The notes beneath the pieces were generated by a model. It had not been told where the DNA came from and searched no databases. It was given only the letters and a program-made list of their open reading frames with translations. This document shows positions 13,989-17,812 of a stretch of DNA of 64,000 nucleotides, piece by piece (within the stretch, counting starts at the first letter, position 1; every line of letters begins with the position of its first letter). This DNA comes from Nitrospira sp. (lineage in GTDB: Bacteria > Nitrospirota > Nitrospiria > Nitrospirales > Nitrospiraceae), in NCBI GenBank assembly GCA_024998595.1, contig JACOEK010000001.1, forward strand, positions 558,001 to 622,000, in the 5' to 3' direction. Made by a program: the position numbers and the translations under genes.

Positions 13989-14567
13989 TTGCGTCTGCTT
14001 GTTGGATTGGGCAATCCCGGAGCTGAGTATGCCGATACGCGGCACAATATCGGCTGCTGGGTGATCGAACGGGCGGCAGCGCGATGGTCGATACGTCTCA
14101 CCAGAAAAGGCGCGGCCCAGCGAGGCTCGGGTCGCGCCGGTTCTAAGCTAGTCGAGCTGGCCGGTACGCTCGACTGGATGAATCTCAGCGGTCCCCCCCT
14201 CAAAGGTCTCCTTCGCGAACTTGGTCTGGCGCCCGAGGCCTTAGTGGTCGTGCATGACGATCTGGATCTGGAGCCAGGTCGGTTGCGGATCAGGCAGGAC
14301 GGCGGCAGCGGCGGTCACAATGGTCTCAAGTCGATCATTGAAGCCCTGGGAACTTCCAAGTTTGTTCGTTTGAAGGTTGGGGTGGGGCGCCCGGCCCCGC
14401 GGCAAGACTCCGCCGATTATGTGCTGGAGCCTGTCTCACCTGAAGAACGAGCCCTGTATGTCCCCTGCCTTGACCGAGCCGTCGATGCGCTGGAGTTACT
14501 CTTGAATCGCGATGTCGCCACGGCGATGAATCAATTCAACGTACGGGAAAAACTCGACGAGAAGTAA
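13989..14567 (+). CDS. pth: Peptidyl-tRNA hydrolase
   Basis: 192 residues; frees tRNA from stalled peptidyl-tRNA. Catalytic His lies in NPGAEYADTRHNIG; the other conserved elements are HDDLDLEPGRLRI and GGSGGHNGLKSI. The start is TTG at 13989, five bases after the rplY stop (RLLVGLGNPG immediately follows), since no ATG or GTG exists before the first conserved residue. It is almost certainly cotranscribed with rplY. Confidence 0.95.
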   Translation: MRLLVGLGNPGAEYADTRHNIGCWVIERAAARWSIRLTRKGAAQRGSGRAGSKLVELAGTLDWMNLSGPPLKGLLRELGLAPEALVVVHDDLDLEPGRLRIRQDGGSGGHNGLKSIIEALGTSKFVRLKVGVGRPAPRQDSADYVLEPVSPEERALYVPCLDRAVDALELLLNRDVATAMNQFNVREKLDEK

Positions 14568-14675
14568 CCAGCGGGGAAAGGATTCTTCTCATGTGTGGCG
14601 AAGGACCTTCTCTTACGATGACGGGGTTGCCGGGACTTCCTCAGTCGGCAGCAGTACACAATCTCCCTATGGTAA

Positions 14676-14695
14676 AGTGACGTATTCGTGTCACT
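14676..14695. promoter_or_regulatory. Inverted repeat AGTGAC-N8-GTCACT before the dioxygenase gene
   Basis: A 6-bp perfect dyad with an 8-base centre, ending 12 bases before the ATG at 14708. The spacing fits a dimeric regulator's operator or a small hairpin over the ribosome-binding region. No regulator gene is adjacent. Confidence 0.35.
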
Positions 14696-14707
14696 CTGGG
14701 AGAAATC

Positions 14708-15913
14708 ATGACCACGCCACTTCGATCACCTCTCTCACTCGCGGCGTTTGACCTGTCTCCTGATCGCGGCTTTCTTCCTGCGACTGACCCCGTGGACCAG
14801 CTTCCGGAGGAGCCGATCGTGAATCAAATCGCGACGGAGCTACCGAAGTTCCTCACCGCCCGGCAATTCCGCCAGTTTATTCAGGACCGGTCGGACATTA
14901 TGGGCCCGGTGGCTGACGATTGGGGGCTTGATGTGTTCCGTTCCGCCATGCGAACGCTGTCGTTTGCCGGCCATGCCTATGTCTGGGAAAATCCCGATGA
15001 TCCCGCAGCCAGGTTGCCCGCCAGCATAGGCCTGCCCTGGTATCGCGTTGCACAACAGCTAGGCCGTCCGCCGGTCCTTTCGTACGCCTCGTATGCGTTG
15101 CACAACTGGCGGCGACTCGATCTGCAGAAGCCGATTGAGCTAGGCAATATCGTGCTCCTACAGAATTTTCTCGGCGGGCTCGATGAAGAATGGTTTGTGT
15201 TGATCCATATCGATATCGAGGCGAAGGCCGGGCCAGGATTGCAGGGATTGGTTCAAGCGCAGAATGCCGCGCAGGAGGATGAGGCGGAGGACGTGCTGGC
15301 CGGGTTGAACGCGCTCGCAGCCGCGCAAGAGGCGATGCGGGAGACGCTCCTTCGTATGCCGGAACGGTGCGATCCCTACATTTATTACAGTCGAGTGCGA
15401 CCCTATATTCATGGGTGGAAAAACAGTCCCGCATTGCCGGAGGGACTGTTGTACGAAGGGGTATCGGACTACGCTGGACGTCCGCAGCAATTCCGCGGGG
15501 AAACCGGCTCGCAAAGTTCGATTGTGCCGGCGTTGGATGCGGGCCTTGGCGTGCTTCATGCCGATGATCCGTTGACGCAATATCTGGTCGAGATGCGCGA
15601 CTATATGCCGCCGCGCCATCGGGCATTTGTGTCCGCGTTGGAAGCGCGTGTGGACGGGCAACAGCGCCCCCTGTTGTATGGGTATGCCCGCGATCGCAAG
15701 GCGACGAATCCTGAATTATGGAAGGCGTTTTGTGCCTGTGTGGATTTACTGGCCCAGTTCCGCGACATTCATGTCGGCTACGCCGAACGGTATATCTTCC
15801 GTCAACATCAGTCGCATGCGAGTAACCCGACTGCCGTGGGCACAGGTGGCACGCCGTTCATGCCTTATCTGAATAAGCATCTCGAGGAGACCAAGCACCT
15901 CATCCAGGACTGA
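14708..15913 (+). CDS. Indoleamine 2,3-dioxygenase-like haem protein
   Basis: 401 residues matching the IDO family, which opens the indole ring of L-tryptophan to N-formylkynurenine using haem and O2. Shared with animal and bacterial IDOs: RPYIHGWKN with a substrate-binding Arg (Arg231), GETGSQSS, EMRDYMPPRHRAF, the proximal haem His in FRDIHVGYAERYI (His355) and the C-terminal GTGGTPFMPYL loop. The N-terminal 45 residues are family-specific leader without a signal peptide. No kynurenine-pathway genes are nearby; it stands alone between pth and a small membrane protein gene. The family call is firm, the true substrate is not. Confidence 0.85.
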   Translation: MTTPLRSPLSLAAFDLSPDRGFLPATDPVDQLPEEPIVNQIATELPKFLTARQFRQFIQDRSDIMGPVADDWGLDVFRSAMRTLSFAGHAYVWENPDDPAARLPASIGLPWYRVAQQLGRPPVLSYASYALHNWRRLDLQKPIELGNIVLLQNFLGGLDEEWFVLIHIDIEAKAGPGLQGLVQAQNAAQEDEAEDVLAGLNALAAAQEAMRETLLRMPERCDPYIYYSRVRPYIHGWKNSPALPEGLLYEGVSDYAGRPQQFRGETGSQSSIVPALDAGLGVLHADDPLTQYLVEMRDYMPPRHRAFVSALEARVDGQQRPLLYGYARDRKATNPELWKAFCACVDLLAQFRDIHVGYAERYIFRQHQSHASNPTAVGTGGTPFMPYLNKHLEETKHLIQD

Positions 15914-16002: not shown

Positions 16003-16215
16003 ATGCGCAAACCAGGCGAACCCATTTATCTCCGAATCCACCTGATCGCTCTGGCGTTGGTCCTTCTCGCCACAGTAGCGTTGCCGCGAGCAGCGGAATT
16101 TTTTATCGGCCCGCTGAGTTTCGGTACGCGCGCCTTGGCGGGGTTGGGGATAGCTGTGGCGGGTGGGATTGCTCTGTACCTCCTCTATAATTCTTCCGCC
16201 CGGAATGAGCCCTAG
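16003..16215 (+). CDS. Small two-helix membrane protein, unknown
   Basis: About 70 residues from the ATG at 16003 (frame open from a GTG at 15922). Two hydrophobic segments (about 12-32 and 43-63 of the short form) with a short polar loop and a basic N-terminus (MRKPGEPIYLRIH), suggesting an inner-membrane hairpin. No family recognised. It follows the IDO-like gene in the same direction and could be cotranscribed. Confidence 0.5.
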   Translation: MRKPGEPIYLRIHLIALALVLLATVALPRAAEFFIGPLSFGTRALAGLGIAVAGGIALYLLYNSSARNEP

Positions 16216-17075: not shown

Positions 17076-17375
17076 ATGACGCGATCAATCACCCTGTTCT
17101 TTATCGCAGGCATCCTGCTGTTCACGGCAGGCTGCGCAGAGTCATTGCACCAGGGGCAGCGGGGGGCTGGGTGGAGCGGCCAATCGAATGCCGGGTATAC
17201 AGACGGCCCAGCCTACGGCGGCGCAGGATATTGGTGGAATCCATTCGGATACTATGGCTCCGGCTACGGGTGGTATGGAGGAGGCTACGGCGGCACCCAT
17301 CAATCATCGAATGCGCCCGCACCTCGTCCGACTCCCCCGGACAACGCGCCGCCCCAGTTTCAGAAGAAGTACTGA
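17076..17375 (+). CDS. Gly/Tyr-rich lipoprotein, copy 1
   Basis: 99 residues with a type II signal peptide: lipobox FTAGC with the acylated Cys near residue 20. The mature part is mostly Gly, Tyr and Trp (YWWNPFGYYGSGYGWYGG), then a proline-rich end RPTPPDNAPPQFQKKY. It starts 12 bases after the barrel gene. The tail and repeat style match the next gene, so the two are paralogues. Such proteins could be surface-associated or sticky matrix components; no function is known. Confidence 0.7.
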   Translation: MTRSITLFFIAGILLFTAGCAESLHQGQRGAGWSGQSNAGYTDGPAYGGAGYWWNPFGYYGSGYGWYGGGYGGTHQSSNAPAPRPTPPDNAPPQFQKKY

Positions 17376-17386
17376 GGTGTCAACCG

Positions 17387-17812
17387 ATGTTCGGCGTGAA
17401 CAAAGAGAGTAAAGCTCCTGCCATCGGTGCAGCCAGCATGAACGCCATCGCGCGCATGGTCCTATTGGTGTGTGTGGTTGGAGCGTTCTCGGCCTGTGCG
17501 CAGTCGGCTCATCAACTGGAGCGGCAGTCGATGGGGGATTCTCTGTTGGACCCCGGCTACGCCGGCGCCCAGTCGTATGCGCCTTGGCCCGGACCCGGTT
17601 ATGGCCCGGGGTATGGGATTGGCTATGGCGCGGGCTATTGGGGCCATCCATTCGGGTATTACGGTATTCCCTACGGAGGGTATGGTCCAGCAGGATTTGG
17701 GTGGTATGGCGGGTACGGAGGATTTGGTGCAGCGCGTCCGCCGTCAGGTGTGCAGGGCCCTCGGCCCACTCCTCCGAGCCACGCGCCCCTGCAGTTCAGG
17801 AAAAAGTACTGA
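17387..17812 (+). CDS. Gly/Tyr-rich lipoprotein, copy 2
   Basis: About 141 residues from ATG 17387 (or 124 from ATG 17438). Lipoprotein signal with FSACAQ as lipobox, then a Gly/Tyr/Pro-rich body (GYGPGYGIGYGAGYWGHPFGY) and the ending RPTPPSHAPLQFRKKY, nearly the same as the end of copy 1. The spacing to copy 1 is 11 bases, so both are probably one transcript. No recognised family. Confidence 0.7.
   Translation: MFGVNKESKAPAIGAASMNAIARMVLLVCVVGAFSACAQSAHQLERQSMGDSLLDPGYAGAQSYAPWPGPGYGPGYGIGYGAGYWGHPFGYYGIPYGGYGPAGFGWYGGYGGFGAARPPSGVQGPRPTPPSHAPLQFRKKY

Follow-up and report, generated by a model that had tools for sequence, protein, structure and literature searches.

An orphan indoleamine 2,3-dioxygenase family gene, near-core in Nitrospira and probably not tied to a kynurenine pathway

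Bacterial members of the indoleamine 2,3-dioxygenase (IDO) family have been in print since 2007, when the Global Ocean Sampling paper, in an excerpt, placed IDO in Erythrobacter litoralis and Nitrosococcus oceani (PMC1821046). Some bacterial IDOs are poor tryptophan enzymes: an excerpt of PMC4217691, citing Yuasa 2011, gives very low tryptophan rates for the recombinant proteins of E. litoralis and Neptuniibacter caesariensis. IDO and TDO are described as mutually exclusive in bacteria in part of a review (PMC4191572), and a Candida IDO appears in part of a published listing. That bacteria, a nitrifier among them, can carry IDO is already known. N. oceani is an ammonia-oxidising autotroph, the IDOs of E. 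litoralis and N. caesariensis are presumably those named 'group I' by Yuasa et al. 2011, and we know of no settled role for bacterial IDOs that act poorly on tryptophan.

The window analysed here is the whole 64,000-nucleotide stretch of a Nitrospira sp. contig that holds the IDO gene of Table 1. In a Pfam profile search the encoded protein scores 284.5 bits against PF01231 (curated cut-off 26 bits) and covers positions 2-410 of the 412 in the profile, which makes it a family member by score, and a genome-wide profile search finds this gene as the only PF01231 match in its genome. The nearest PDB chains by sequence are IDO2 and IDO1. An AF2 model of the protein (mean pLDDT 80.7, built from 27 aligned sequences) has IDO2 and IDO1 crystal structures as its top Foldseek matches, with a TM of about 0.83 by query length (0.83 to IDO2 9uz4_A), so that the predicted model has the IDO fold. 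The proximal haem ligand His355, the substrate residue Arg231 and the GTGGT loop (Gly378-Thr382) are all in place, and Arg231, His355 and GTGGTPF (378-384) do not vary among the 30 sequences of alignment A2, one of them from the window. Judged by sequence and predicted fold, the protein is a real haem dioxygenase of the IDO family with its catalytic marks, as the preliminary description held.

Table 1. Features in and around the IDO gene; positions are those of the window.
Feature	Position	Strand	Remarks
Peptidyl-tRNA hydrolase gene (pth)	13989..14567	+	Upstream neighbour; in the 1.5-kb flank of 19/27 genus loci
Extended -10-like promoter element TATGGTAAAGT	14668..14678	+	Conserved in the genus; named by its likeness to the consensus
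AGTGAC-N8-GTCACT dyad	14676..14695	.	Exact; ends 12 bases before the ATG
Likely ribosome-binding site GGGAG	14698..14702	+	Putative, from sequence
IDO-family haem dioxygenase gene	14708..15913	+	ATG to stop, 401 aa; PF01231 match, AF2 model, alignments
Key residues of the IDO protein			Proximal haem ligand His355, Arg231, Thr379, distal His167, pocket loop Gly264-Glu265-Thr266-Gly267
70-aa hydrophobic ORF	16003..16215	+	No Pfam match; just downstream of IDO in 27/27 genus loci

The likeness to mammalian IDO2 and IDO1 is one of fold, at 25-32% identity in the Foldseek listing, with the proximal His, Arg231, Thr379, Phe163 and Tyr126 shared; Arg231 and Thr379 we take to be the substrate-anchoring residues of IDO1. 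The pockets differ in other positions. At the distal site the Nitrospira protein has His167 whereas IDO2 has Thr and wild-type IDO1 Ser; the aligned IDO1 chain reads His there and is presumably an engineered mutant. A distal His is a feature of TDO (PF03301), which by established knowledge performs the same general chemistry. Tyr226-Tyr227 of the Nitrospira protein correspond to Phe-Phe in IDO1 and Phe-Tyr in IDO2, and Glu265-Thr266-Gly267 to Gly-Ser-Ala in both, the mammalian loop reading Gly-Gly-Ser-Ala. The IDO1 loop adopts differing conformations, according to the title of PDB 7yxt. The IDOs on plasmids of Haladaptatus, Halomicrococcus, Natronosalvus and Natronococcus, 33-36% identical to the Nitrospira protein, carry the same haem and Arg/Thr residues but, unlike it, are linked to kynureninase, kynU being annotated beside IDO in 6/6 of the loci read (of 7 haloarchaeal matches). 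Their pocket loop is Gly-(Ala/Gly)-Ser-Gly and they have Gly or Ala at position 227.

Pocket residues and the gene tree were compared in 36 sequences, namely the window, 26 of 80 kept relatives and 9/10 plasmid matches (H10 was left out). His167, Arg231, His355 and Thr379 are constant in all 36. A subfamily spanning Nitrospirota, Armatimonadota and several proteobacterial MAGs has Tyr226, Tyr227 (Phe in one row), Arg229, His235 and Gly264-Glu265-Thr266-Gly267 in 27/27 rows of alignment A3, and differs from the kynU-linked haloarchaeal IDOs at pocket positions 227, 229, 235-237 and 265-266. Outside the subfamily, the Sphingobium plasmid IDO (L134; 44% identity) branches closest (support 0.74); it belongs to the Sphingomonadales, the order of Erythrobacter, whose low-activity IDO, like that of N. 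caesariensis, is likewise bacterial. The Sphingobium loop is Gly-Gln-Thr-Gly, and two Methylocystis IDOs outside the subfamily also have Gly-Glu-Thr-Gly; the Glu-Thr loop is thus not exclusive to the subfamily. No kynU annotation lies within 4-5 kb on either side of these three genes. As the two Methylocystis IDOs share it, the Gly-Glu-Thr-Gly loop may be a wider marker of kynureninase-free IDOs.

A conserved acidic residue in a loop predicted to face the substrate suggests an altered substrate preference, which would fit the very slow tryptophan turnover given for the E. litoralis and N. caesariensis IDOs in the excerpt of PMC4217691. A tentative extension is that the proteins with this loop form a class of haem dioxygenases whose physiological substrate is something other than free L-tryptophan, for example a derivative whose amine Glu265 reads; we consider this possible rather than probable.

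The preliminary description called an IDO unexpected in a chemolithoautotroph. Our genome survey speaks against this, as the gene is present in 28 of the 29 genus genomes, Candidatus Nitrospira defluvii (FP929003.1) among them, and the N. oceani IDO had been in print since 2007 (excerpt of PMC1821046). The sole genus genome without IDO is 88% complete and in about 1030 contigs. At the level of the family, 117/175 genomes score above the PF01231 cut-off and 9/22 genera have a match; in two family genomes (G094 and G157) the match has an internal stop codon, and there the gene may be decaying or mis-assembled. The collection scan gave at least 580 relatives. Among the 80 kept are N. moscoviensis, further Nitrospirota, Fimbriimonadales/Armatimonadota, and MAGs carrying the labels Deltaproteobacteria, Desulfuromonadales, Gammaproteobacteria and Proteobacteria. 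The Nitrospira sequences group in a single clade of the gene tree (support 0.99), which lies within a larger clade holding every Nitrospirota sequence used (1.0). By these distributions and the tree, IDO is a near-core gene that has been vertically kept in Nitrospira. Recent acquisition or carriage as phage cargo was rejected, given that Nitrospira clade and the lack of a match in phage records and PHROGs. In the phylum of one distant relative (L119), IDO was found in 1/198 genomes sampled, that of L119 itself. No publication title on IDO in Nitrospira stands among the literature matches listed. As far as that literature goes, what is new here is the near-core conservation in Nitrospira, the pocket motif of the subfamily, and an IDO together with a TDO-kynureninase pair in one genome, as set out below.

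Based on our profile searches, the Nitrospira IDO likely does not feed a kynurenine pathway. Such a pathway was said in the preliminary description to be absent nearby, and indeed none of its genes is among the five neighbouring ORFs scanned with Pfam or, as read from the ORF list, in the remaining neighbourhood. Nor did a complete pathway elsewhere in the genome, which would have made the gene ordinary, come to light: the genome has no match to kynureninase (TIGR01814) at E <= 0.001 and none to TDO. None of 61 relatives reaches the kynureninase cut-off of 246.4 bits; 11 of them have matches below it, one of these in the genus (G016, 29 bits). TDO matches are missing from all 25 genus genomes searched and occur in 2/41 relatives. 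Both of these (G044 and G050) belong to the order, lack IDO and carry a kynureninase-like gene of 96-103 bits adjoining TDO, and the TIGR01814 cut-off alone is therefore too strict here. As a positive control, three of the haloarchaeal kynU genes were scanned and gave 353-391 bits. Among 14 IDO-carrying genomes drawn from the 80 kept relatives (of unstated completeness), none reaches the kynureninase cut-off and 13 have no match. The exception is NPIRA02 (L111, G211), with a kynureninase-like match of 106.7 bits. A profile for 3-hydroxyanthranilate dioxygenase was silent in all 31 genomes searched, and equally so in the control genomes.

In NPIRA02 a TDO gene and the kynureninase-like gene overlap (L143:1420-3478), and an orphan IDO lies elsewhere in the same genome. 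Within the order Nitrospirales TDO was thus seen beside a kynureninase-like gene in three genomes (NPIRA02, G044 and G050). The NPIRA02 pair counts against a simple rule that IDO never occurs with kynureninase, and the genome is an exception to the published mutual exclusion of IDO and TDO. The pair has a dioxygenase of its own, and the IDO sits apart from it.

Nor need NAD come from tryptophan in the Nitrospira genome, since it encodes nadB (L-aspartate oxidase; 556 bits against a cut-off of 452.75); NAD synthesis by that route is accordingly unlikely.

Genes beside IDO were listed for 79 of the 80 kept loci (L095 is absent) and the window. Fifty-six of these loci (L063-L118) come mostly from Nitrospira at about 65% identity, with L087 (80%) and, further off, L107-L113 and L115 among them as well. 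In those Nitrospira at about 65%, IDO occupies a different genomic place, frequently following SAM synthetase and SAH hydrolase, whose clusters accompany it in 28/56 and 32/56 loci, respectively; this association may be inherited synteny. More distant relatives have catabolic neighbours. In NPIRA02 IDO is preceded by genes for a B12-binding mutase domain, a carboxyltransferase, an enoyl-CoA hydratase, an HMGL-like lyase and MeaB, a leucine-type catabolic run, and by a 420-aa ORF without Pfam match between that run and IDO. Upstream of IDO in L119 are an acyl-CoA dehydrogenase, MeaB, cystathionine beta-synthase and a cystathionine gamma-synthase-type enzyme, with the same clusters in L126, and a cystathionine gamma-synthase family gene precedes IDO in Methylocystis heyeri. 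These neighbours hint at a role in amino-acid turnover. The search for a universal partner gave no gene common to the IDO loci of all groups.

A MeaB-family gene stands shortly before IDO in six loci of Nitrospirota and Deltaproteobacteria MAGs (L111, L113, L115, L119, L123 and L126; one cluster, with the Pfam assignment made on the L119 member), and several of the six sit within acyl-CoA or amino-acid catabolic runs.

Given the above, we favour the reading that the gene encodes an orphan bacterial IDO that cleaves the indole ring in tryptophan or a tryptophan-like compound and probably does not feed a kynurenine pathway, and put its probability at roughly 55%. Under this scenario the ferrous haem would bind O2 and add it across the C2-C3 bond of the substrate, an indole amino acid (tryptophan or a near derivative) that Arg231 and Thr379 hold in place; an N-formyl product would result. 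That product would not be handed to kynureninase; it would probably be hydrolysed to a kynurenine-type amine and formate, and then left or exported. The enzyme would serve in amino-acid turnover or indole disposal, and its expression would depend on a simple conserved promoter, not on a dedicated operator. The reading draws on the family, fold and residues of the protein, its near-core status, the lack of a kynureninase match in its genome, nadB, the catabolic context in some relatives, the conserved promoter-like element, and the presence in NPIRA02 of an IDO besides the TDO-kynureninase pair. Several points count against it: in NPIRA02 a TDO already stands beside kynureninase, the catabolic context is absent from the genus loci of the window itself, the Glu-Thr loop occurs outside the subfamily too, and the candidate enzyme for the next step, the PF04199 protein described below, scores low as an arylformamidase and looks secreted by eye, which IDO does not. 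Furthermore, the low rates of the E. litoralis and N. caesariensis enzymes mean that tryptophan may not be the substrate.

An ordinary L-tryptophan dioxygenase, followed by a PF04199 formamidase and an unspecific transaminase in a short branch ending at kynurenine or kynurenic acid and formate, is an unlikely though serious alternative. The genome encodes one PF04199 protein (149 bits), 38-44% identical to those near IDO in the L063-L118 loci, 20/56 of which have such a gene no more than about 3 kb from IDO, in two arrangements, and the retained Arg231 and Thr379 would suit tryptophan. However, PF04199 is also found in IDO-less members of the family, and the arylformamidase profile TIGR03035 (cut-off 223 bits) gives 60 bits on the 172-aa core of the Nitrospira protein and 90 bits on that of L076. 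By eye the PF04199 protein also has an apparent signal peptide. The pocket is moreover unlike that of the kynU-linked haloarchaeal IDOs at the positions named above.

Less probable still, and argued from analogy, is a haem protein that is non-catalytic or works by a side activity, such as an O2 or NO sensor or store, or a haem that reacts with nitrite. An IDO-like myoglobin of abalone (excerpt of PMC4191572) and a nitrite reductase activity of human IDO1 (excerpt of PMC9246256) have been published, and would lend such a role some plausibility. The carrier belongs to a genus of nitrite oxidisers. Binding of O2 or NO, and equally the degradation of an indolic signal, both suggested in the preliminary description, are possible roles. 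Against this, Arg231 and Thr379, constant in the 36 sequences, would be needless in a pure O2 carrier, and IDO is also found in phyla that are not known for nitrification. In addition, three IDO-less family genomes (G029, G075 and G078; 99% complete) have partial narH (TIGR01660) matches of about 113 bits, which we take as probable nitrite oxidoreductase, and a strict tie between IDO and nitrite oxidation was rejected on these matches. The genome of the window (G000, 99% complete) has no narH/NxrB-like match at E <= 0.001, and 15/29 genus genomes have at least one; the copies missing from G000 are perhaps collapsed or unassembled.

The significance of the gene depends on which substrate it uses. 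With a near-core IDO whose pocket motif differs from that of the kynureninase-linked IDOs, this major genus of nitrifiers offers a defined, testable set in which to look for the true substrate. Should the enzyme act on tryptophan, it would give bacteria regarded as lithoautotrophs an oxygen-dependent outlet for an amino acid.

Upstream of the gene, 27 of 30 IDO loci were compared; L002-L004, of another genus, were excluded, and G016 and G053, whose gene is fragmented, gave no locus. The pattern T[AG]TG[GA]TA[GAC]A[GA]T, derived from the same rows, is matched by 26/27 genus members, and we call the element extended -10-like from its likeness to the consensus. A simple sigma-70 scan of the IDO upstream region, which requires a good first hexamer, gave no + strand promoter, and extended -10 promoters can have a poor first hexamer. 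The dyad, described as perfect and operator-like, is indeed exact, and the last three bases of the -10-like element are the first three of its left arm. It is perfect in 1/27 genus members, that of the window; elsewhere the next best partner of the left arm is 5/6 at another spacing, and L025 and L029 retain the left arm with a 4/6 partner at the same spacing. Allowing one mismatch at most, the pattern occurs at 3 places in the genome (1 exact) against 5 for a reversed control. Perfect 6+6 dyads with a spacer of 3-14 are found in 556/2556 overlapping 100-base stretches of the window (22%), and those with a spacer of exactly 8 in 2%. These comparisons suggest that the dyad is a palindrome that arose by chance next to a conserved promoter. 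That a transcription factor acting on it would control IDO upon an indole signal is very improbable despite its position just before the ATG, the rarity of the exact spacing and the partial partners in L025 and L029, and an operator role was rejected as the dyad is not conserved, its genome count lies under the control and dyads with spacers of 3-14 are common in the window.

Downstream, the 70-aa ORF has two likely membrane spans by eye, and a conserved TGGAAT-17-TACACT-like element precedes it in 9/10 aligned rows. A search of the IDO loci of other groups gave no convincing match to this ORF. Further along, at 17076-17812 of the window, two adjacent Gly/Tyr-rich ORFs, the first without a Pfam match, have the look of paralogous small lipoproteins.
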